DNA from: a virus
IMG/VR virus record: IMGVR_UViG_3300020462_000015
Span: 1-41,078 of that record
DNA: 41,078 bases
Direction: 5' to 3' (one strand)
The position numbers were made by a program, and so were the translations under genes. Below, piece by piece: positions 4,970 to 36,159 of this stretch. The notes beneath the pieces are model-generated. The model was not told the origin of the DNA. It ran no database searches and saw nothing but the letters and a program-made list of their open reading frames with translations. The number at the start of each line of letters is the position of its first letter. Position 1 is the stretch's first letter.

Positions 4970-7309
4970 TTAACAAAAGAAGTAAGTGGATTCAATTACG
5001 GATTCCGGTTCAAGGTCTCCAATAATCGGTGGTTCAGTCTTTGCGCCTATTTGGTCAGCAAAGTCTTGTAAGTAATTGTGTTCGGCAAATAGGTGCATAT
5101 ATGTCTCTCGTACAATTGCACTGAGAGCAGACATGTCGGTAGCACGACACAATACAGAATCATGGATGAGAGCGATCGGTGCATTGAAAGCTAATGCACT
5201 GAAGTGGAGCAAGGAAGCATCGAGTGAATGTATTAAGTTAGGTGCTGTTGCATTCTTGTGGTGTTGTTTGTCAACTTCGTCACTATCTTGTGTAGCAACT
5301 TCTAACTCACAACGACCAAGCAGTTGTAATTTAACTGTTACAACTTCTTTTTTCATAAGTTTTTGATTAACAACAAAACCTGATGGTGTAGACCAAGTTA
5401 GTTCTGTTTTACCCAAGTCAATTGCTTTAGCAACCTCCTCTTCAATCCAACTCATGACAGCCATAGGACCAGGTACGACCTCATCCATAGCATTTCTAAC
5501 AGCCTCAACAGTTTTTGTCAAGTCATCTTTATCAATCTCAATACCCTTTTCTTTTAGTGCGTCCTTGATGTACCCACGATTTGAGAAAGGTTTTGCATTA
5601 TAAGGTACGGTCATCACTACTCTTTTGACTACCTTTCTATCCATATAATTACGAATAGAATTAGGGCAGAAAGGAGTAGCAGTACGAGCGACGACAGCAT
5701 AAGCATCCTGTGGTTTATCAGATGGTATAACATTAACAAGACTAGCAGTATTCTTATCTTTAGCAAGACCTGCTAGTATCTGTAACCCGCTACAAGTAGC
5801 ATCTGTGGCTACAGGCAAACTTGTAAAATTACGATCACACTTAAGCACACAATGATAATACTCATCACATGCTGCCAAAAACTGCCATGGCTCATCAGCT
5901 ACTTCCCAGTCGTGAATGTGTAAGATAGGATCACTAGCGACACAAGATATAAGATGAGTATTATCCTTTACCCAATCTAATCTTTCTTGCATTGTAGCTT
6001 TATCTAGACCATACGTAGTTGCTACTTGAAATGCTAACCAATCTTCAGCTTCAGGAGTCATGTAAGACGGTTCAGCAAAAGACAATAAACTTTTTCCAAA
6101 GTCTGTGTCTTGTGGTGTTAAGAATGAAGGGATTGGGTAAGCTCTACCTCTGTAATCAAAAGACCAAGGAATAAAGAATTTATCTTTACTCTTAAATCTT
6201 TGTACAGCTTCCATTGTCATTCTTGTTCTACATGACTTCTTAAACTCTTGAGCTTGTAAATTGTAAACAGCAGCAGCTTGTCTGTTATAACTATGACGAG
6301 CTTCTTTATTATCTGCTATATCTACAGGCTTAGGAGGTAAGTCATGCTGAATAATAGGGAGAAACTTACCGACAGCTCGTTCCAATCTATCTAGTTCTTC
6401 CGCTACACCCACAGTGAATGGGTTTAGACGATAAGCAACCTTCTGAATTCGGTTCAAAAACTCAATAGGTCTCTCTCCCTGTATACATCCGCCCGTACCG
6501 CGTCTAACCATATCATGGCCTCTCATCACCTCATTTAGGATGTAACCGCCACATTTTTCATGTGTCCAGTCATTAGGTTCAATAAGCATTGGCCATGCAA
6601 GTGGGCTGAATAACTCAGCATCACGCATTACTGCGTCCTTGATCTCAAGAAATTCTGCAGTCGGTACAACATATTGAACACGTTTACGTCCTTCTTGTTG
6701 CATGTCTTTTGTGAACCACCCGATGCTTTGCATGATGCAGTCAAGTAACCAGCCTCCAAGTTTAATGCGATTAGCTCTGCCCCATGCATCCCATTGTTTA
6801 ACGTCATAACGATTCATCAAAGTACGGATCACAACTATTTTTTGTTGTGTACCTATTGAACGATGCCAATAGTTCTCTTTTAATACATGTAGAAGTCCTG
6901 GTGCATGTTTTTCGTAGTGTCTCATTTGACACTCTTGCTCAACAGCAATACCTATGGCATCACACACATTTACTGCTTGATTACTTTTATCTTTATATGA
7001 AAAGACTTTATCAAAAGTTAATTTAACAGCTAAAGCAGCAGCAGCAAGAGGCTCAACATCAGCAAGATACCGTTGAATCTCTTTGAATGTTTTACCTGCT
7101 TCACCTTTAGTCAACCTAGTTGTAGTATTTTCAATACGTCTAACCACAAGAGGCAACAAGGTATCAATAGAAGCAGCCCCATATACAGTAGCAGACGCAT
7201 AAGATTTACTCTCTAAATCGTAGGTGTTCTTATGTAAACGCTTGAGACCTTGTGAAATAGCATCACGCTCAAATTGGATCTGTTCGTCTATTTGTGCTGG
7301 TGTTGGCAA
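4970..7309 (-). CDS. T7-type single-subunit DNA-directed RNA polymerase
   Basis: The 779-residue enzyme transcribes the middle and late genes from phage promoters. Catalytic features are present: TDATCSGLQ (palm Asp503), VKRVVMTVPYNAKPF (Lys562, Tyr570, matching T7 Lys631 and Tyr639), NLIHSLDAS and ALIHDS (Asp717, matching T7 Asp812). It is about 100 residues shorter than T7 RNAP (883), mainly in the N-terminal part. The start is TTG, but with the best ribosome site in the window (AGAGGAGGA, spacing about six), so 7309 is well supported. The gene overlaps the end of the preceding small frame by 41 bases. One CACATTCAC repeat lies 30 bases upstream of the start. Confidence 0.96.
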   Translation of the reverse strand: MPTPAQIDEQIQFERDAISQGLKRLHKNTYDLESKSYASATVYGAASIDTLLPLVVRRIENTTTRLTKGEAGKTFKEIQRYLADVEPLAAAALAVKLTFDKVFSYKDKSNQAVNVCDAIGIAVEQECQMRHYEKHAPGLLHVLKENYWHRSIGTQQKIVVIRTLMNRYDVKQWDAWGRANRIKLGGWLLDCIMQSIGWFTKDMQQEGRKRVQYVVPTAEFLEIKDAVMRDAELFSPLAWPMLIEPNDWTHEKCGGYILNEVMRGHDMVRRGTGGCIQGERPIEFLNRIQKVAYRLNPFTVGVAEELDRLERAVGKFLPIIQHDLPPKPVDIADNKEARHSYNRQAAAVYNLQAQEFKKSCRTRMTMEAVQRFKSKDKFFIPWSFDYRGRAYPIPSFLTPQDTDFGKSLLSFAEPSYMTPEAEDWLAFQVATTYGLDKATMQERLDWVKDNTHLISCVASDPILHIHDWEVADEPWQFLAACDEYYHCVLKCDRNFTSLPVATDATCSGLQILAGLAKDKNTASLVNVIPSDKPQDAYAVVARTATPFCPNSIRNYMDRKVVKRVVMTVPYNAKPFSNRGYIKDALKEKGIEIDKDDLTKTVEAVRNAMDEVVPGPMAVMSWIEEEVAKAIDLGKTELTWSTPSGFVVNQKLMKKEVVTVKLQLLGRCELEVATQDSDEVDKQHHKNATAPNLIHSLDASLLHFSALAFNAPIALIHDSVLCRATDMSALSAIVRETYMHLFAEHNYLQDFADQIGAKTEPPIIGDLEPESVIESTYFFC

Positions 7310-8729: not shown

Positions 8730-9071
8730 TTAAAAGTTACGATTGAAGAAATAGTATTCACTATCATGATAGATTTCAAAGTAATCATATTGCATTGATT
8801 GATGCCATACTAATTCCCAATCAATTGCAGTCTGTAGGAATACTGGCATCGCATCGATTGCTTCACTGTAGCAGTCACTTAACAAGTCCTCACAAAATGT
8901 TGACTCGTCACGATAACAGCCAGAGTAAGCATCATCTAACGTTTCTTCGTTGTCGATACCATAGCCTTCAAGTTCTTGAATGATGGTATCAACCTTAGAC
9001 ACACTGTCGATGCTAAACAACTCGCTTACACGTTGTTGTAAATCAGTCAAATCAGAAGTAGTAGTCATCAT
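8730..9071 (-). CDS. Acidic hypothetical protein (113 aa), early region
   Basis: The product is strongly acidic with many Tyr (DAYSGCYRDESTFCEDLLSD, then YDYFEIYHDSEYYFFNRNF). Small acidic early proteins of phages often inhibit host enzymes or mimic DNA, but no family is recognised here. I chose the ATG pair at 9071; a TTG at 9119 would add 16 residues. A CACATTCAC repeat ends seven bases before the ATG and there is no Shine-Dalgarno sequence. Confidence 0.65.
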   Translation of the reverse strand: MMTTTSDLTDLQQRVSELFSIDSVSKVDTIIQELEGYGIDNEETLDDAYSGCYRDESTFCEDLLSDCYSEAIDAMPVFLQTAIDWELVWHQSMQYDYFEIYHDSEYYFFNRNF

Positions 9072-9108
9072 AGTGTTGTGAATGTGTTGTTTGATTAAAG
9101 ACAATAAA

Positions 9109-9333
9109 TCAACCGACAACCGTTGTTAAATTACCCTTGCAATAAGCATTTACAAACTTACCGAATGATGTGATACTTCCAAAGAATACATCAATGATTG
9201 CTTCTTCGTTAACATTATCATAGAGATAAGTTTTATCATTGTTTTTGAATTGTACCATCACTTGATTAGTAGATGGGTTGAGCAAGATGTTACGAACAGT
9301 TGAAGACTCGATGGTGTTAGGCTTGAAAAACAT
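9109..9333 (-). CDS. KTSC-like small protein A (74 aa)
   Basis: The order of features (S-S-T-V-R-N-I, V-Q-F-K-N-N-D-K-T-Y-L-Y-D-N-V, then F-G-K-F-V-N) resembles the KTSC domain, a short beta-rich fold common in phages. Its biochemical role is not established. The neighbour at 9376-9612 has the same plan, so the two look like paralogues. It has no clear ribosome site. The domain call is from pattern memory and needs a profile search. Confidence 0.6.
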   Translation of the reverse strand: MFFKPNTIESSTVRNILLNPSTNQVMVQFKNNDKTYLYDNVNEEAIIDVFFGSITSFGKFVNAYCKGNLTTVVG

Positions 9334-9683: not shown

Positions 9684-9902
9684 TCAACCGTAAGTGTACA
9701 TAAACTCAGACAAAGGATTCTCTTCGTCTGTACAGGTTTCTTCTATTAATTGAGCATGAGTCAAAGATTGAAGATAAACAAGATATTCTTTTGGTGTAAA
9801 CTCACCATCCTCAAGTGTTGAGTCATGGCACAAGTTGTCGTACTCTTTATAAAGAGCATCAACCAGTTGTTGATGAGAATAGTCAGTTGGAAGTGTTTTC
9901 AT
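9684..9902 (-). CDS. Acidic hypothetical protein (72 aa), leaderless early gene
   Basis: The protein is acidic and soluble (YSHQQLVDALYKEYDNL, EETCTDEENPLSEF). No family recognised. Its ATG lies six bases after a TATTAT -10 box (9909-9914), so transcription should begin at or next to the start codon and the mRNA would be leaderless. No ribosome site is present, which fits. Confidence 0.65.
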   Translation of the reverse strand: MKTLPTDYSHQQLVDALYKEYDNLCHDSTLEDGEFTPKEYLVYLQSLTHAQLIEETCTDEENPLSEFMYTYG

Positions 9903-10773: not shown

Positions 10774-11115
10774 TTAAACTCCCATAAGTTCAGACTTAGC
10801 GTCATCTTTAATTAACTCTAACTCATCCACAACATCATCAACATAATGTTCTGCAATATCTCGGAAGTCAATCTCACTAACTGCAGAGTTCAACATGTCA
10901 TTAATGAAACCATTTTGATCACTTGGTGATAGTGAATACTCCACAACTTCTTCGACAGTAGATTTAATATATTCTTCGATGATATCTAAAACGTCACAGT
11001 TATCTTCACAATCCTCGAACAAATGCATTTGATCAGTGAACTCAAAGTTCTCAAACCAAAGATTACATAACCATGTCTCATAGTTAGTCCAACCGTTGTA
11101 CTTCTGAATGTTCAT
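10774..11115 (-). CDS. First early gene: NGWTNYETW-type phage protein (113 aa)
   Basis: The N-terminus carries NGWTNYETWLCNLWFEN, a motif I have seen repeatedly in short phage and plasmid proteins of unknown function. The rest is very acidic (EDCEDNCDVLDIIEEY, VDDVVDELELIKDDA). The ATG at 11115 has a usable ribosome site (AAAGGGAGAA) and lies about 25 bases after the predicted transcription start. As the first gene after the leading host-type promoter it is a good candidate for a host-takeover function. Confidence 0.75.
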   Translation of the reverse strand: MNIQKYNGWTNYETWLCNLWFENFEFTDQMHLFEDCEDNCDVLDIIEEYIKSTVEEVVEYSLSPSDQNGFINDMLNSAVSEIDFRDIAEHYVDDVVDELELIKDDAKSELMGV

Positions 11116-11145
11116 TAGGGTTTCTCCCTTTGTTTGTATGAATAC

Positions 11146-11174
11146 AATATAGCACAGCTTCAAGGAATAGTCAA
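11146..11174 (-). promoter_or_regulatory. Leading sigma70-type early promoter
   Basis: TTGACT (11169-11174) and TATATT (11146-11151) are spaced by 17 bases on the minus strand, close to the bacterial consensus. It is the first promoter after the gene-free stretch and points into the early block. Its upstream sequence differs from the two downstream copies. Confidence 0.8.
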
Positions 11175-11595
11175 CCCCTTATTGCACCAATCTCAATGAA
11201 CTCATCATTACCTACGATTTAATTAGATATACTTATTTCACACGATTAACACACGTCAATGATGCAAACCCGTAACGAGTTAGTGTTACTTAGCAATTCG
11301 CAGACAGATGTTTTGAGAATCATTATCATTACCGTTATTTAATACTGATACGGATTCGTATCGTGCACTATTTAACACTAACCCGCTCGCACTTCGTGCT
11401 CGCTTTCCCCGCACGATTTACCCGGTACAATATATTTTACACGGGCAATCCGGCGGGCGGAGTGAGCGTAGCGAACGGAGCTAATTAATTGTTTATACTT
11501 TATATTTAAATTAATTCTTAATTCTTAGACCCCCTATGGGGGATTAATTGTTAATTCTTATTAAAAACTACTGCTGAGACATTTTTGTCATTTTT
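11175..11595 (-). other. Gene-free stretch, probable genome-end or terminal-repeat region
   Basis: I found no convincing frame here. It holds an AT-rich part, then an unusually GC-rich part (about 11380-11480) with the dyad GCACTTCGTGC, then CCCCCTATGGGGG (11530-11542) flanked by direct repeats TTAATTCTTA (11511-11520 and 11551-11560). The stretch separates the thyX end from the leading early promoter. In T7-like phages the direct terminal repeats lie between the last late gene and the early promoters, so an end or junction here is likely. That is inference; no duplicated segment can be seen because the assembly would merge the two repeats. Confidence 0.55.
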
Positions 11596-12222
11596 TTACG
11601 ACCACATAGCTGCATAAGTAAGGGGGAACTGTTCTTTAAGTAAGGTTTTGACCCCTTCTGCGATCAATTGATGTTCATATTGAGTACCGTTTGCGCCTCT
11701 TAGGGCAGTATAATGAAGCCAGGAGCGTAAACTACCTTTCATATAAAGTTTAGTAGGTGTTGAGAGGGGGAGAACATCTCTTGCACATTCTTTAGCGACA
11801 CCAGCAGCGAGCATTTCATTATAAAGCTGACGGGATTGATCAAAAAGGTCTTGAGTACGAATTTGGAACTCTTGCTGAGTAAATTCATTAAGATCATCAA
11901 TACTATTTTGTCTATTTGAAGTATCTTGTCTTCTAAAGTTAGGAAGTATGGGAGTATCAATTACTTGAGCGTATCTTTGGGAGAATTCTTGAAAACTAAA
12001 GGATCTATGTCTTAATATTTGACTAGCAACACTTCGGGTTGTGTCTATTTGTACACACATATCAACCATTTCAAAGGGTGACCAATGTTTATGTTTAATG
12101 AGGTACTTAATTAATTTAACATAATCAGGATTATCTTGATTATTAGGATTAGATACTCTAGCCATATAAGCTAGTAATTGTTCAGCATCGGGTGTTACGT
12201 GAACAAGTTCTACGTTATGCAT
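11596..12222 (-). CDS. thyX: Flavin-dependent thymidylate synthase ThyX
   Basis: ThyX makes dTMP from dUMP using FAD, NADPH and methylene-tetrahydrofolate. The 208-residue protein carries the signature [14 protein letters not shown] (residues 71-84). [21 protein letters not shown] and [17 protein letters not shown] are typical C-terminal parts. It would raise thymidine supply for phage DNA made from recycled host nucleotides. It lies between terL and the gene-free stretch, so it is either the last late gene or the first gene after the genome end. There is no Shine-Dalgarno sequence; a weak promoter-like pair lies upstream. Confidence 0.95.
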
Positions 12223-12423: not shown

Positions 12424-14148
12424 TTATACCCAAGTAGGGATAGAATTTTTACCGTTACCTTTAGCTTGTTGTCTTTGTTCTAAGTTCATACCAAAGACCA
12501 TATGATTAGCAGAAGCTTGAGGATCATCAAAGAATTCTTCTAGCATTGAATTCCATTCAGTACGTTTACGATCTTTAATAGCTTCAAGAGCAGAGATACC
12601 CATTGCATCTGTGTAATATTGTACACCTTGAGCTAACGCATCTAATCTATCATCGTGACGGATTGCACCTTTTTCACGGCACATGCGACTCATCTGATAG
12701 AAGAGCATGTAGAGGAGTCGTTCTTCAGGAGCTGCATCTGGATTCGACTTGAAATCCCACTCAATAACATTACGATCAATGATAAGACGATGCTGATTAA
12801 GAACAGGTTCCAAGCTATCAATGATTCGGTCTTCTTTTCTAACATTAGCGCGTACTTCTTCGATGTCTATACCTTGTTTAGTTTGTTGCATATGTTTTTT
12901 AAACAACTCAGAGACAATACCATCACCAAAGTTAGTTTCAATAAGAAGTTTAGTAACACCAAACTTTTTACAACCTTTTAGAATATCGAGTAATGTATTG
13001 TCGGAGTATCCGTCCCTATAAGCACGCATGTCGTGCAAGTACAAATAACCGTTGCGTTGAGAGATATAAGCCGCTGCCGTTTCATCCGATCCACGACCCG
13101 ACGGATCAACAGAGCAGATTGTTTCTTGGTAAGGATCCCATGTTCCTTGTAACTGCATTGGAGAGTAGAAATAATCTCCAGGGAGTCCAACAATGGGGAG
13201 GTCTTTGATAACGTTTTGTGGATCGGAACACCATACGATGGATTCGGGAGCAGTAGTGGGGTTAACGCTAGTGACGATAAGGTCAGAGCATTTAAGAGGA
13301 AACTTTTCAGCATCGGATAAACTCGTGTCTAACATGAACTGCAACATAAAGTTGCTACGACCCATTGAAGCTTCACGTTCAATCAGGTCATCATTATCAA
13401 ATCTATCATCTGTTACATCCCATTGTTCAGCACCAGCATCAATATCTTCTACCAGTTGAGGCGCTAGAAGACCTTCGTATTGAGTTACCTTCCTAGGATA
13501 CCTAGCAGGCCAAACAAAGGGCTTGTAGCTCCTCTCAGCTAGCTTACGGTAGACAGTAAATGTTGTCTGAGGTGTACCTAGAAACATAATACGACTATCA
13601 TTTTTGGGAGTAAGGATAGATTCAGCTTCAGTACATAATTGTAGAAGCTTTTCCCTCATAAATTCTGTCATTGAGTTACCAGGAACTTCAATATCGTCAA
13701 GGATCATTAGATCAGCACGAGAACCTGTAAGCTGACCAGTAATACCCACTGATTTAACAGAAGGGGCTTGGTGAGGGGAACAAGCCACATCAAATGAGAT
13801 ACGACTCCAACGGGAGTCATCAGATTTAGGGCGCAAATGAACCAACCAAGGTGTTTCAATGATTAATTTCTGTAGGAAGATTGACATGTTATCTGCTCGT
13901 TCTTTAGAAGCAGATATGATCATTATTTTCTTTTCGGGGTTATTAAATAAAGTCCAAAGAACAAAAGCACCAGTAATCCAGCTCTTACCAACTCCCCTAA
14001 ATGCTTGGATTTGTAAACGCTTTGGACCATGTTGAAGGTAATCAGCAATTGCATATTGAGCACGTGTAGGGTTTGGTAGATCTAATTGACTCCATAATGC
14101 TTGTAGGAATAGCTTAAAATCGTCTTTAAGGAGGTCTAAAGTGTTCAT
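12424..14148 (-). CDS. terL: Terminase large subunit (T7 gp19-like)
   Basis: This ATPase-nuclease pumps DNA into the procapsid and cuts concatemers. The 574 residues compare with 586 in T7. Walker A is QAFRGVGKSWITG (near 48-60) and Walker B is ADLMILDDIE (near 145-154), with the coupling motif FLGTPQT further on. The nuclease part includes CSVDPSGRGSDETA (metal-binding Asp) and DRLDALAQGVQYY near the end. It follows the small terminase with two genes in between and has no clear ribosome site. Confidence 0.96.
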   Translation of the reverse strand: MNTLDLLKDDFKLFLQALWSQLDLPNPTRAQYAIADYLQHGPKRLQIQAFRGVGKSWITGAFVLWTLFNNPEKKIMIISASKERADNMSIFLQKLIIETPWLVHLRPKSDDSRWSRISFDVACSPHQAPSVKSVGITGQLTGSRADLMILDDIEVPGNSMTEFMREKLLQLCTEAESILTPKNDSRIMFLGTPQTTFTVYRKLAERSYKPFVWPARYPRKVTQYEGLLAPQLVEDIDAGAEQWDVTDDRFDNDDLIEREASMGRSNFMLQFMLDTSLSDAEKFPLKCSDLIVTSVNPTTAPESIVWCSDPQNVIKDLPIVGLPGDYFYSPMQLQGTWDPYQETICSVDPSGRGSDETAAAYISQRNGYLYLHDMRAYRDGYSDNTLLDILKGCKKFGVTKLLIETNFGDGIVSELFKKHMQQTKQGIDIEEVRANVRKEDRIIDSLEPVLNQHRLIIDRNVIEWDFKSNPDAAPEERLLYMLFYQMSRMCREKGAIRHDDRLDALAQGVQYYTDAMGISALEAIKDRKRTEWNSMLEEFFDDPQASANHMVFGMNLEQRQQAKGNGKNSIPTWV

Positions 14149-19931: not shown

Positions 19932-22900
19932 TTAGTTACGAATATTTAGAATTGAATCATCAAAAGTTTCACCAACTATATTGGCTTCTTCTGTTAGTTC
20001 TTTTTGAACTTGACGTAGCTCCAGTGCAGCATACATATCTGCATCCATATCAGCAAAAGCAAAGTCCTCTGCAGCACGTCTAGCTTCAGATAACCTAGCA
20101 TGTATATCATGCCATTTCTTTAGAGATACTTCATCTGATTTATATCCTTGGTTACGTAGTTCACGTAGTTTTTCAATACTCTTCCAGTCACCAGCATCAC
20201 GCATAATTTCTTGAATAGCTTCTTTAAAGAATCCACGCTCACCCATCAACCGGAATAGTTCAGAACGTTCAGTAGCAAGTAGTTTTACACCATTTTTAGA
20301 TCTAAAGTTAGTGTTTATATCAAACTCCATTTCTTGTAAGAACTTCTCTTCAGGTGATTGTTCTGCATGTATTTTAATAGGACTATAAGCATTCCATACA
20401 CGTTGTAAGAAGCTATAACCATTAGGTTTTTCACCAGTTACTGGACTATAAACATAAGGTTGTCTATTGGAAGAATCTAGTTCACCAGCAAACCTATTAC
20501 GGTTTTCAAGTTGTGACATAAAATCATTTTCAACTTCCTTTAAACCTTCACTTAAGATACGACTCCATTCTCCACGTTGTGAAGCAAGAGGACCAAGACT
20601 ATTAATAAAACCAGCAGACCAACGTGTCATTGCACCTTCGTTACCACTAAGAATATCAAGTAACGGTTTGATAGTAGATAAACCAGTACGATCAGTAACA
20701 GCAGCACCAAAGACAAAACCTATTTTAGATAAGAAGTTTTCTACAGCTGCTTCACCAAGCATATCAAAGTTATCAACAACATTGACTGTAAGTGCTATCC
20801 AATCAGCAACCGGTCCCATCCAATCATATGAGTATCGTTTGCCGTCAAGTCCCTTAACAGTACGTTTTTGCCAATCAGAGTTCTTTACTCTAGACATTTG
20901 TGTTTCTTTATCGTAAAGACCATCACCAGTAATACGGTCATTCATAATAAGACCAACAGTACCTGTTACGGCTAATGCACCAATAGCTTTACGACCACGT
21001 GTCATATACTTAAGATCAGCAATTTTATTTTGCTTAGCAATAGTATCCATACTTTCAATATCGATATTACGTGCCTTAAGTAATTGATCGATACGTTCTT
21101 CGTTACCAAGCAGATCATCTAGTTTAGTATAAGCTAGTTCATTGATATCACGTTGAAATGGTGTCCAAGGACCATACTTACCCATCATATCAATCATGTT
21201 CATACCAGTTGTGGGGAACATAAGAAATGGACGCATACCAGGTACTGTGTTTACAAGATCACCAACACCTTGTGCTAATGGTGTGTCTAGGTTAAGAGCC
21301 ATTTCACTATTGGCATATTTAACAGCTTCGTCTTTTAACAAGCCATTATCACCAAACATCTCTTTATAATATTTATCAGCAATAGGTTTGACGTTTTCTT
21401 TAGTAATGGGTTTACCAGATGCTACCAGTTCATCCATTGCACGGAATCTAGCTTCAGCTGATGCATTAAATACACCAGTAAATCCATCCAATGCTGTCAT
21501 AGCATTAGGTCCAAATCTAAGTACAGGGTCTTTACCTAGATCATTTAGCATTTCAATTTGATTTACAATATACTGTAAACCATCATCACCATCAGCAGCC
21601 TGTGCACGTGCTGCTTGTTTAAGGAAATCTAACTCACGTTCTGATTGTAGTAACAAATCAGTACGAGTAACAGAACGAATTGAATCAGGTTCACGAGAAG
21701 CTTTTAAGAAAACATCACCAGCATAAGGTAATGCTTTACGCATAGTTTCTCCAACAGAACTATAAGCAATCCAACCACGTTGCAGAGCTTTTAGACCTTT
21801 ACCAGATAATGCTGCACCAGCAAAATAAGAAATAGGTTGACTAACAATACCACCAAAGTTACCAGTAAGTGCTTGGATAGGAGTTTTAAATGCAGATAGA
21901 ATGCTATTATAAACATTAGACCATACACCAGCAACTAACTTATTCTGTATTTCAGGATTAAGGTTAATAATCGCCTTACCTAAATCAGTGGTCATTCCAG
22001 CGATGTAGTTATTCATCTTAGTGATAGTATCAATACTACCATCAGTAAGTTCATAAGCCATCAAGAATTGATCCATTAGCCGTGGCTGATTAGCTGCGAT
22101 CTGACGCATTGTATTACCAAACCTTTGAGCATCTTCAAAGATACGTTTAGCAGTTTCACCAGCTCCAAGTACAGTAGCTTCATTATAACCTTCGATATTC
22201 TTAAATCCATTCTGTACTTGTTGGATAAGATTCATCTTACGGTTTTTGTAGTACTTAGCAGAAGCAGATAATTGAGTGACATATTGCATCATATCAATGA
22301 TCTTTTCTTGTGCTACTTCTACAGCAGCTGTACCTTCCATTAACCTTGCACCTTCAGAAAGGTCTGAGATGCGTCCAGAAAGGCTTCCAGCAAGGATGGA
22401 CTGTGCCCTTGCTACATCCATACTGGTAAGGTCACTTCCGAAGCCTCTGAGAGCCTTAGCGGCCATAGCAAAACCACCTTCTGCTAGGATCTCCTTACCG
22501 TCATCAGTACGAGTAATAAATGGTTCTAATACTTTCCTTACATCTGCCTTACTCATACGTGGATCAAATAACTGAATTGCAAGGTTTTCACCTTCATCAA
22601 TTACCTCATCAAAAGTAACCTTCCAACCGTTACCTTCCATACCAATACGACCAGCTTGATTCAGCTGATCAGCAAGACCAAGAACAACATCTTGTGCATT
22701 ATCACCACTTGTTAGGCTATACTTTAATGCAGGTTCAGAGATTACATTACCAAGTCTACCATAAACAGTATCTAAGTTTTTAGCAACACGAACTGCATCT
22801 ACACTAGCACCAACAACACCAAAGTCATCAACAGTACGGATACCAATTTCAGTGTAATCATACATATCATGAATACCTTTGATTGGTTGATCCATAGCAG

Positions 22901-23915
22901 GATTCATAGAATAACCATACATCCCCATCTCATCAAGAGCTTCCTCTTGTTTAATAGCAGATTGAATGACAGCTTCTTCTGGATCAGCAGAACTAGCAGG
23001 TGGTTTATTTGTATCTAACCATTTACGTGATTGAGGTGTTTCACCAACAAGTTTATTAGATTTACGTAATGCACCAGTAGTACCGACAATAGAATCAATA
23101 AATTTAACACTACCTAATGCTAAGTCAGTAACAAAACCAAGACCAATATCTTCACGTATATTCTTCTGACGTTTCATGTCAGGAGTATCACTATCCAAAG
23201 TAGCCATGCTATCAGGGATAAAGTCAAACGTTTTAGGAAACGCTTTCTTTAAAGTACCTGTAGCATTATCTTCTTCGTATTCACTACTAACAAGCCCTAC
23301 ACCTAAACCAGTTAGAGCTTCTACACCACGATCACCCATAAACTGGACAAACTTATTCTGTCCTACGGACCAACCCACACGTGTGTTAGCAGCAGTACCA
23401 GCAGATTTTAGTGCACTACCACCAATCAACATCGGTGTAACAACAGAAGAAATTTGTCTTACTGCTTGTGCTGTTTCGTTTTCAAATTTAGTAAGCTTAG
23501 GTATATTAACACCAGGAAGGACATTAAGAACGTCTACACCAAAGTCAAGTAAACTTGTAGGTACAGCTGCAGCAAGTTCAGCAGCATACCTAGGGTCTTC
23601 AGCAAACCCTTCTAGTTCACCACCTGTACCTGTAGCCATTTGCCTGCGGTTCCATTCACCACGACTCATTCCTTGGGCTTCGTAAAAAGAAAAGTCTTTT
23701 GTTTTGTCGAAGGGTTCTTCTTCTTGAGACTCCGTAGATATCTCTGCTTGTGGAGCTTGTTCAGGCTGTTCTCCCGTAGGAGTAGAGGTTTCATCTAGTT
23801 GAGTATCTTCAAGCTGTGCAGCCTCTTCTTGAAGCTGCATTTCAGCGTTGAATTCTGGAGATAACTCCATCTCACCTGGATCCTCCCTAAACCTCTCGTT
23901 AGGATCGTATTCCAT
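19932..23915 (-). CDS. Internal virion protein, T7 gp16-like (1327 aa)
   Basis: The length is almost that of T7 gp16 (1318) and the position after the gp15-like gene is the same. T7 gp16 is ejected and spans the cell envelope to form the DNA channel. The first 75 residues are acidic and Gln/Glu-rich; then come Gly/Ala-rich hydrophobic segments (PTSLLDFGVDVLNVLPGV, AIGALAVTGTVGLIM) among long helical stretches. I see no lytic transglycosylase motif at the N-terminus, where T7 gp16 carries one. Cell-wall cutting must therefore come from another protein, perhaps the gp15-like neighbour. Confidence 0.85.
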   Translation of the reverse strand: MEYDPNERFREDPGEMELSPEFNAEMQLQEEAAQLEDTQLDETSTPTGEQPEQAPQAEISTESQEEEPFDKTKDFSFYEAQGMSRGEWNRRQMATGTGGELEGFAEDPRYAAELAAAVPTSLLDFGVDVLNVLPGVNIPKLTKFENETAQAVRQISSVVTPMLIGGSALKSAGTAANTRVGWSVGQNKFVQFMGDRGVEALTGLGVGLVSSEYEEDNATGTLKKAFPKTFDFIPDSMATLDSDTPDMKRQKNIREDIGLGFVTDLALGSVKFIDSIVGTTGALRKSNKLVGETPQSRKWLDTNKPPASSADPEEAVIQSAIKQEEALDEMGMYGYSMNPAMDQPIKGIHDMYDYTEIGIRTVDDFGVVGASVDAVRVAKNLDTVYGRLGNVISEPALKYSLTSGDNAQDVVLGLADQLNQAGRIGMEGNGWKVTFDEVIDEGENLAIQLFDPRMSKADVRKVLEPFITRTDDGKEILAEGGFAMAAKALRGFGSDLTSMDVARAQSILAGSLSGRISDLSEGARLMEGTAAVEVAQEKIIDMMQYVTQLSASAKYYKNRKMNLIQQVQNGFKNIEGYNEATVLGAGETAKRIFEDAQRFGNTMRQIAANQPRLMDQFLMAYELTDGSIDTITKMNNYIAGMTTDLGKAIINLNPEIQNKLVAGVWSNVYNSILSAFKTPIQALTGNFGGIVSQPISYFAGAALSGKGLKALQRGWIAYSSVGETMRKALPYAGDVFLKASREPDSIRSVTRTDLLLQSERELDFLKQAARAQAADGDDGLQYIVNQIEMLNDLGKDPVLRFGPNAMTALDGFTGVFNASAEARFRAMDELVASGKPITKENVKPIADKYYKEMFGDNGLLKDEAVKYANSEMALNLDTPLAQGVGDLVNTVPGMRPFLMFPTTGMNMIDMMGKYGPWTPFQRDINELAYTKLDDLLGNEERIDQLLKARNIDIESMDTIAKQNKIADLKYMTRGRKAIGALAVTGTVGLIMNDRITGDGLYDKETQMSRVKNSDWQKRTVKGLDGKRYSYDWMGPVADWIALTVNVVDNFDMLGEAAVENFLSKIGFVFGAAVTDRTGLSTIKPLLDILSGNEGAMTRWSAGFINSLGPLASQRGEWSRILSEGLKEVENDFMSQLENRNRFAGELDSSNRQPYVYSPVTGEKPNGYSFLQRVWNAYSPIKIHAEQSPEEKFLQEMEFDINTNFRSKNGVKLLATERSELFRLMGERGFFKEAIQEIMRDAGDWKSIEKLRELRNQGYKSDEVSLKKWHDIHARLSEARRAAEDFAFADMDADMYAALELRQVQKELTEEANIVGETFDDSILNIRN

Positions 23916-33835: not shown

Positions 33836-34537
33836 TGGCCTAAAATAAGTAACCGAGGAATGCCACTCATCACTACCATTCGTATTGAAACTGTTTCCAG
33901 CTCCGGCAGGTGTGGTAGTACCTGAATTTGGTATGACTGCGTAGGCAATCATCACTGAACTTCTTCGAGTAAAGAATCCGTCTTGACGTGATCCACCAGC
34001 AAATCCCACAAGCGTAAGACCACTTGGAGCTGTGCAGCTTGTGATCGTATCATCATCTAGATAACCGCCTGCAATTTGCAACGAATAGTTCTCAGCAGTT
34101 CCTGTGCCATTCTGATTGCTCGATGGTACAACCGGATCACCTGAGTTACCACTAGTAAATGCATAAGGATCATTATTAAAATCAACACTGACTGTGCCTG
34201 TTGAGCATCTAAAGATCACCAACGCCCCTGCTTCTGTATCGCTGTCAGAAGTGACAGAAACAGTTCCTTCGTTGCTTGTGGCAATCCTGACTTGCTCTTT
34301 ATAACTCGGATCGTTATCTGTTCTGAAAAAATTATTGTCCCAACCAGTCAAGGTGGTAATTGATCCAGCATTATCTCCACTTTGAGTGAATAGCAGCAAA
34401 TCACCTGTCTGTACCCCGTCAACGCTAAAGCTTGCGCCAGCTGCTTGCTTAAACTCTGAATCGGGAACTGACCATGTTGCAGTGCTAGGAGCACTTGATG
34501 TTGGATAACCACCAAAAACTGCTTGATGTATTCCCAT
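33830..34537 (-). CDS. Probable virion surface protein (235 aa)
   Basis: The protein is rich in Ser, Thr, Gly and Asn with alternating beta strands (VDGVQTGDLLLFTQSG, GSITTLTGWDN), resembling jelly-roll decoration proteins of marine phages that start with a GD-L-L-L strand. It directly follows the collagen-like gene (TAATG), so the two are probably parts of one surface structure. No catalytic motif seen. Confidence 0.65.
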   Translation of the reverse strand: MGIHQAVFGGYPTSSAPSTATWSVPDSEFKQAAGASFSVDGVQTGDLLLFTQSGDNAGSITTLTGWDNNFFRTDNDPSYKEQVRIATSNEGTVSVTSDSDTEAGALVIFRCSTGTVSVDFNNDPYAFTSGNSGDPVVPSSNQNGTGTAENYSLQIAGGYLDDDTITSCTAPSGLTLVGFAGGSRQDGFFTRRSSVMIAYAVIPNSGTTTPAGAGNSFNTNGSDEWHSSVTYFRPS

Positions 34538-36159
34538 TAGGTTAACCCTGCTCCACTAATTACAAATTCATTGCTTCCCACCGCCAGCACTGAGCACAAA
34601 CCATATTGAGCCAGCACCCTGTTACCCGTAGTTGCAGATCCAGCAAGTCTCAATGTGACGCTTCCACCTTGAGTAATTGTTTGATTGCTGCCGCTATCGT
34701 TGAAGATAGAGACCACATTGCCCGCACTAAATACACCACTTGGAATGGTGACTCCACCAGTGGTTATATTAATATGTTTACCGTTATCTCCTGCGACAAG
34801 AGTATATGCACTCGTCTGGCTGTTCTGCGGAATGTCGCTCGGGCCAGCAGCCCCGTCTGCGCCAGCAGCACCGGTTGGTCCTTGTGGACCAGAGCCTGAT
34901 AACGAAAATATCGAAAGTGCTGAAGTACCTAACTCTAGTGAAGTTGTAATACCAGCATCATTTTTCTGCGCTTGTACGCGGACTACATTATTTGCAGTTA
35001 AAACAGCGATACAAGAACCTACAGCAGTGAAATCACCATCAGCTGTGTTCCTTGAATAGACCGAACACTCTGAACCTGTTACAGCAGTTCCACCAACTTG
35101 TACTTCACCACTAACAATAACACGGTTATTTCCTGATGATTGGTCACCATCTAAAGAGTATTCAATGTAGTAAGTACCAGCATTAACAACTGTAATTTCA
35201 CCACCAGTTCCAACAGTAAAATCGGACGCATCCGATGTTACAATCGTCGTATCAAAATCAACGGTGGCTAGTGACGTAGTTAAAGCCTGTGAGCCGCTGC
35301 CATCAACATGTAAATAGCGACTAGGTGTACCACCACCACCACCAGATTGATTAACCCACTGAGTGTTGTAATTAGTACTATCAATTTTTGCTAGTACTTG
35401 GTTAGCAGTACCTCCAGTAGGTACACCTTGTCCAGCTGGACCCTGTGGACCTGTAGAGCCTGTTGCACCAGTAGCACCATCCGATCCATCAGCACCTGCC
35501 GGTCCAGTCGGTCCTGTCGGTCCTGTAGGCCCTGTAGAGCCCGTTGGACCTGCCGGACCTGTTGGACCTTCTGGTCCTGTGGCTCCGTCTGAACCGGCTG
35601 CACCTGCTGGTCCTGTTGGCCCTTGTGGTCCAGTTGGACCTGTAGCGCCTGTAGCTCCATCTGAACCATCAGCGCCGTCTGACCCTGCTGGACCTGTTGG
35701 ACCTGTTGGACCCTGTGGACCTGTCGCACCATCTGAACCATCATTACCGGCTGGTCCTTGTGAACCTGTTGGTCCTGCTGGTCCTGTAGCTCCGGTTGAT
35801 CCTGTATTACCTCTAGGTATATCAAAATCAAATACAGCAGCTGAAGATGTACCACTATTAGTTACAGCAGCATTGGCACCAGCTGCTAGCGTTGTTGTTG
35901 TACCAGCACTAAGAGTTGCTCCAGCTGGTCCTGTTGGTCCAGTCGGTCCTGTTGGTCCTGTTGCGCCTTGTGGACCTTGAGAACCAGTAGCTCCATCACT
36001 ACCAGACGGTCCTTGTGGTCCTTGTGCACCATCAGCTCCAGCTGAACCTGTTGCACCGGCTGGACCTTGTGGACCTTGTGGACCAGTGGGACCAGTCGGA
36101 CCAGGTTCAAGTACAACTAGATCTAACTCACCTGTAATAGGGTTGAACTGAAATGCCAT
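34537..36159 (-). CDS. Collagen-like fibre protein (540 aa)
   Basis: After a short N-terminal sequence the protein has long Gly-X-Y runs ([10 protein letters not shown] type) at about residues 18-80 and 115-245, interrupted by a beta segment at 80-112. A globular beta domain of about 150 residues follows, another short G-P-x stretch near 430, and a C-terminal domain ([20 protein letters not shown]) of a type seen in phage fibres. Collagen-like parts give trimeric, stiff rods, and the C-terminal domains probably trimerise and bind. It is likely a side fibre or capsid fibre. Confidence 0.8.

Follow-up and report, generated by a model that had tools for sequence, protein, structure and literature searches.

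A predicted T7-type concatemer junction and a single coding-strand ATCTGT in a metagenomic relative of Synechococcus phage S-RIP1

The window, that is, the whole stretch of DNA analysed here, is an entire IMG/VR virus record (IMGVR_UViG_3300020462_000015; 41,078 bases), the minus strand of which is the main coding strand. On this strand the large terminase subunit gene (terL) is followed by thyX, a gap, the early genes and the RNA polymerase gene (Table 1). The terminase showed 88% identity to that of Synechococcus phage S-RIP1 (Autographiviridae), and thyX, an HNH protein, a T7-type RNA polymerase and a primase-helicase were also found to be encoded. By its gene content the window is a metagenomic relative of S-RIP1 and a T7-like cyanopodovirus, and it encodes both a T7 gp19-type terminase and a single-subunit RNA polymerase, as expected of a phage with a T7-type junction. 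Repeats of 12–400 nt were sought at the two ends of the contig and none was found, so that the record is without end repeats. A weak ArdA-like anti-restriction protein is predicted among the early genes (8730–9119, minus strand), and G+C climbs locally to 56% at 35501–36000, within a 540-aa ORF (34537–36159), the genome elsewhere having 39%.

The gap covers 480 nt (11116–11595) when counted from the ATG that probably starts the first early gene. A sequence-only reading had singled it out as the only gene-free stretch of more than 300 bases, which was confirmed: with minus-strand ORFs counted from 50 aa upwards it extends over 11164–11595, and the runner-up measured 275 nt when the initial 561 nt of the contig were set aside. 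Searches for a gene (minus-strand ORFs of at least 50 aa) and for a tRNA or Rfam RNA within the gap gave no candidates. The sharp change in base composition that had been described was also found, with 40-nt windows spanning 7.5% to 72.5% G+C inside the predicted repeat; each of these extremes was matched by less than 0.05% of all 40-nt windows.

Table 1. Features in and near the gap that follows thyX, in the order in which they are read on the minus strand
Feature	Position	Strand	Remark
Terminase large subunit (T7 gp19-type)	12424..14148	-	Gene annotation
thyX, last late gene ahead of the junction	11596..12222	-	Gene annotation
Left-cut box, TGACAAAAATGTCTCAG...TA	11569..11594	-	Directly upstream of the repeat; conserved in relatives
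Predicted direct terminal repeat, 259 bp	11310..11568	-	Left boundary from box/palindrome spacing, right boundary from ATCTGT
AT-rich direct repeat, outer side of palindrome	11543..11560	-	18 nt
CCCCC-NNN-GGGGG palindrome (CCCCC-ATA-GGGGG)	11530..11542	.	About 26 nt inside the repeat; unique in the window
AT-rich direct repeat, inner side of palindrome	11510..11527	-	18 nt
GC-rich arm 1, GCTCCGTTCGCTACGCTCACTCC	11455..11482	-	Core conserved in an alignment of 8 sequences
Inner imperfect inverted repeat, CCCGTGTAAA...GTACCGGG	11421..11446	-	Similar element in S-RIP1
GC-rich arm 2, GCGAGCACGAAGTGCGAGCG	11384..11403 (about)	-	Core conserved in an alignment of 8 sequences
ATCTGT, right-cut flank and candidate pause hexamer	11304..11309	-	Only coding-strand copy in the window
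Early sigma-70-like promoter, TTGACT-17-TATATT, extended -10 (TG before -10)	11146..11174	-	Similar promoter in S-RIP1
First early gene, DUF7249 family	10774..11115	-	Likely ATG at 11115
Single-subunit phage RNA polymerase, proposed ATCTGT reader	4970..7309	-	Gene annotation

Within the gap, CCCCCTATGGGGG, noted earlier as being flanked by direct repeats, was shown to be the only C5N3G5 match in the window (0 in 100 shuffles), and the two 18-nt repeats alongside it are 94% alike. What had been called a GC-rich dyad consists of two imperfectly complementary GC-rich arms around a weaker inner inverted repeat, and it is better preserved in relatives than in the window itself. A word nearly identical to arm 2 is present in the NATL1A-7 junction, and a 20-nt word of this arm was found in 35 stretches of viral contigs. 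DNA folding of the 259-nt repeat gave a value of -37.1, calculated for the native sequence only. GC-rich REP-like words (GCGAGCRCGWAGYGCGAGCG) recur in the terminal repeats of the clade to which the window belongs; in one relative (G002, L277) such a word is also found once just outside the repeat, upstream of the box, as if mobile. Nine promoter-like sites were detected in the stretch compared with 6.5 in shuffles, and such sites are hence common; the promoter in Table 1 (read 11174–11146) scores jointly highest among the nine. A putative Fur-box-like stretch, AATGATAATGATTCTC (11315–11332, minus strand), adjoins the right end of the repeat on its inner side; similar stretches are TTGAGAAYGATTCTCA in a relative (L112) and TATTGAGAATC, present twice in the Syn5 repeat.

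The genome ends of T7 are well established, and exact end repeats were found in five records: T7 (160 bp), P-SSP7 (206 bp), Syn5 (237 bp), S-TIP37 (150 bp) and S-SBP1 (180 bp). The P-SSP7 repeat has been mapped on virion DNA (PMC3350473). A C5NNNG5 palindrome begins at repeat base 26 in T7, 27 in P-SSP7 and 26 in S-TIP37, and a box like TTTTGACAAAAATNTSTGAAG..TA directly precedes the repeat in the end-defined records, the T7 box being the least similar. The six bases right after the repeat are ATCTGT in four of the five records and ACCTGT in P-SSP7. In SP6, which has a 174-bp repeat, ATCTGTT begins at the last base of the repeat, so the SP6 boundary agrees within one base. The repeat_region annotated in S-B28 overlies terL and not the junction.

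The gap in the window lies between the last late genes, on the terL side, and the first early promoter, and it contains the left box, the palindrome at 26–27 and the ATCTGT after the repeat, as at the known ends. From these landmarks a terminal repeat is predicted that would be present as one copy in the contig and as two in the virion. The left cut is predicted at approximately 11568/11569 from the spacing of box and palindrome, with an uncertainty of about 3 nt, and the right cut at 11310/11309 from the sole minus-strand ATCTGT. Doubled read depth should be expected over about 11310–11568 only; the region of 11.1–12.4 kb suggested earlier is too wide. The proposal of the sequence-only reading that the genome ends lie between thyX and the early promoter is supported by synteny, by a box-and-palindrome model and by the position of the palindrome, which agree, and further by the single coding-strand ATCTGT at the junction and by the contigs of two relatives that stop at the predicted right end.

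The box-and-palindrome model was built from 50 sequences, leaving out the window and T7 and keeping P-SSP7. It matched the window at 11601–11528 only (40.5 bits, E=6.5e-12); elsewhere in the window no match exceeded 6.6 bits, and 100 random windows gave at most 13.9 bits. With a model from the five end-defined records alone the window site was not significant (7.1 bits, rank 2), and with four of these records it ranked fifth; the five-record model is too thin to find the site. For the position of the hexamer in relatives, two loci with palindrome matches and no box (L135 and L147) were dropped before counting, and 7 of the remaining 40 palindrome loci were excluded as having less than 300 nt downstream. 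ATCTGTY was found 60–300 nt past the palindrome in 25 of the 33 testable relatives; 500 Markov controls averaged 0.93 and did not exceed 4, and none of 1054 other stretches had it so placed. It was absent from the expected place in the other eight, several of which have ATCTGT with a different seventh base.

Among 80 terL relatives examined for contig ends, two had contigs that stop exactly at the predicted right cut. In the first of these (G001, locus L132; 44,137 bases), a 158-bp repeat stands at either end (157/158 identical). On the right the contig breaks off at the very base after which ATCTGT comes at the other end; the repeat ends just before the only coding-strand ATCTGT of this contig, and the left end closely follows the box. 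The second (L094), which has 95% terL identity to the window, stops at ...TTCTCAAAAC. In the alignment its last base directly precedes ATCTGT, into which the sequences of the window and of other relatives run on. The names of the two contigs suggest sister samples, and they are therefore not fully independent. The contigs of the remaining relatives end at scattered places, and repeat sizes estimated for the 36 of 80 that allow it ranged from 137 to 284 bp.

These contig ends also bear on the possibility that the gap is a regulatory region of the early genes, with promoters, operators and hairpins, in a genome that is either circularly permuted or has its ends at another place. The presence of an early promoter, the Fur-box-like stretch near the right boundary and the fact that the contig runs straight across the region are compatible with such a region. 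However, the P-SSP7 assembly was likewise circular before the ends had been sequenced (PMC3350473), relatives' contigs stop at the predicted base, one of them with repeats at both ends, and the box, the palindrome and the hexamer have counterparts at the ends of T7 and of cyanophages. We therefore consider a regulatory region without ends very improbable; going by its sequence, the gap is almost certainly a T7-type concatemer junction holding the genome ends.

Compared with T7, the junction of the window showed a similar organization. Both are located between the end of the terminase gene and the early promoters, and both have the C5NNNG5 palindrome at repeat position 26 and ATCTGT directly after the repeat. 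They differ in repeat size (259 bp predicted in the window, 160 bp in T7) and in the seventh base (ATCTGTC in the window, ATCTGTT in T7), and the window repeat contains a GC-rich inverted repeat, unlike that of T7. P-SSP7 shares the left box, the palindrome and the overall layout with the window, but has talC instead of thyX before the junction and ACCTGT instead of ATCTGT. The nearest isolate is S-RIP1 (Kajamvirus), in which the junction was located at 22846–23204 and which shares the box, the palindrome, the GC-rich arms, ATCTGT and the promoter with the window; its ends are unannotated, and its record begins inside the major head gene. S-TIP28 (MZ803112, L282) has no end repeats, and its only coding-strand ATCTGT is found at 948, where a box and a C-rich element precede it. 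Judged by these landmarks, its deposited start is probably not the physical end.

Counts across genomes showed that the coding strand of the window, like that of 25 out of 27 cyanopodovirus records, carries exactly one ATCTGT, the other strand of such genomes having 19–50 copies each. The exceptions were S-CBP3 with two copies, the record of which is a draft in unordered pieces, and P-SSP7 with none. The single copy was found 0.66–2.5 kb after terL in 14 of 14 records and then in 11 of 12, the position in S-CBP3 being ambiguous. In 15 cyanophage records taken together with the window (16 sequences, with T7 left out and P-SSP7 kept), 15 copies were present on the coding strand compared with 230 expected, and 442 on the other strand compared with 259 expected; none of the 18 one-letter neighbours of ATCTGT was depleted to a like degree in these sequences. 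Likewise, ATCTGT was the most depleted of 4007 hexamers when 483 kb of metagenomic relatives were counted outside the junction (0 compared with 87.6 expected). P-SSP7 (AY939843, L004) has ACCTGT at its junction (207–212), a base shared by a second P-SSP7 record. It has no coding-strand ATCTGT, yet it avoids this word (0 compared with 11 expected), and it does not avoid ACCTGT (11 compared with 8.7 expected). A literature search of titles and the opening parts of abstracts yielded no description of ATCTGT at cyanophage ends or of its loss; older papers on T7 packaging may state the part that concerns T7.

A conceivable origin of the strand bias is that the phages avoid a host restriction system whose site is non-palindromic. 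In its favour, the remaining words with strong depletion in these phages are palindromes, as is typical of restriction avoidance, and phages can keep non-palindromic restriction sites on one strand, as T7 does for EcoP15I. On the other hand, the rule holds in Synechococcus phages, Prochlorococcus phages and the T7 group, and the retained copy falls in the stretch following terL in 25 of the 27 records, which restriction would not predict. We regard restriction avoidance as a very improbable cause.

The strand bias is instead apparently connected with transcription, ATCTGT being single on the coding strand apparently because the phage RNA polymerase stops there. Lyakhov et al. in 1998 and Zhang and Studier in 2004 are said to have found that pausing of T7 polymerase at the junction helps packaging. 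According to a review, T7 RNA polymerase has ATCTGTT as its class II pause/termination signal, which is present at the T7 concatemer junction (PMC11617373), and the consensus is given elsewhere as well (PMC11347151). The hexamer of the window has the same core and the same junction location as this signal, and the core is on the transcribed-sense strand. Neither the seventh T nor the downstream run of T is found in the window (ATCTGTCTGCG); the junction of T7 itself has the seventh T but no T run (ATCTGTTAC).

T7 early DNA is transcribed mainly by the host polymerase. In 70 loci of the T7 group, coding-strand ATCTGT was found once in late DNA compared with 185 expected (137 on the other strand), and 14 times in early DNA compared with 28 expected (13 on the other strand); the late/early borders are approximate, since a default terL end (base 9755) was used for some loci. 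In VSW-3, ATCTGT was not depleted (7 compared with 8.4 expected), and the VSW-3 polymerase is reported to be insensitive to class II signals. The Syn5 polymerase is reported to give shortened transcripts on a cas9 template on which T7 polymerase stops 9 nt past ATCTGTT (PMC9624206). The late/early contrast in the T7 group, the absence of depletion in VSW-3 and the shortened Syn5 transcripts favour the polymerase as the cause. Four observations point against it. Unlike in T7, the loss extends into the early region of cyanophages (0 compared with 24 expected on the coding strand), which counts against the polymerase because host-transcribed DNA need not be purged. SP6 showed no strand bias (6 on the coding strand compared with 7). 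The hexamer is changed in P-SSP7. Finally, the R173C mutant of T7 polymerase is reported to be insensitive to the class II signal, and the column aligned with Arg173 of T7 is not Arg in any cyanophage polymerase.

Some of these observations would suit a purely terminase-related signal, in which ATCTGT marks the cut site, stray copies are avoided as cuttable during packaging and the polymerase has no role. ATCTGT is located exactly at the cut, SP6 has ATCTGTT at its end without a strand-biased loss, a directional motor could explain the strand bias, and the early region of cyanophages is purged as well. However, early DNA of the T7 group is packaged in the same way as late DNA and is not purged by strand, whereas late DNA is; VSW-3 shows no loss; and the hexamer is the core of a known polymerase pause signal at the T7 junction. 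A signal for the terminase alone is thus rather unlikely, though it deserves more weight than either of the other two alternatives.

The explanation as a whole, a T7-like concatemer junction with a 259-bp repeat at which pausing of the polymerase at ATCTGT marks the site of packaging, is considered highly probable. The position of the junction, its conserved landmarks, the ends of relatives at the same bases and the strand-specific loss of ATCTGT are features of the sequences themselves; the concatemers, the pausing, its coupling to packaging and the duplication of the repeat are carried over from T7. By this analogy, genomes would be joined head to tail during infection, with a single repeat separating thyX from the early genes. 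While transcribing the late genes, the phage RNA polymerase would cross the box, the palindrome and the repeat and then pause at ATCTGT just beyond the repeat, and the paused complex would show the packaging enzymes where the junction is. Cutting just before ATCTGT would then produce the right end, the repeat would be duplicated, and the left end would be cut just after the box, giving a repeat at both virion ends. As a guess, formation of the left end might involve the palindrome or the GC-rich inverted repeat, either as a protein site or as a hairpin.

Assembly often yields circular cyanopodovirus genomes, and to our knowledge few ends of these phages have been determined. The box, the palindrome at fixed spacing and the hexamer that occurs once per genome give the ends to the nucleotide from sequence, and ends read in this way call into question the start points of records such as that of S-TIP28. 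The presence of one strand-specific polymerase pause word per genome is a more interesting result than the junction itself. The strand-specific loss of the hexamer ties a polymerase pause site to packaging far outside T7, and this connection is testable in marine phages. It seems fairly likely that, in T7-like phages from those of enterobacteria to those of marine cyanobacteria, ATCTGT serves as a single-copy, strand-specific address at the packaging cut and has been purged from DNA transcribed by the phage polymerase. If so, transcription-cued packaging would be an ancient and general feature of these phages, and the ends of uncultivated cyanopodoviruses would be readable from sequence alone.
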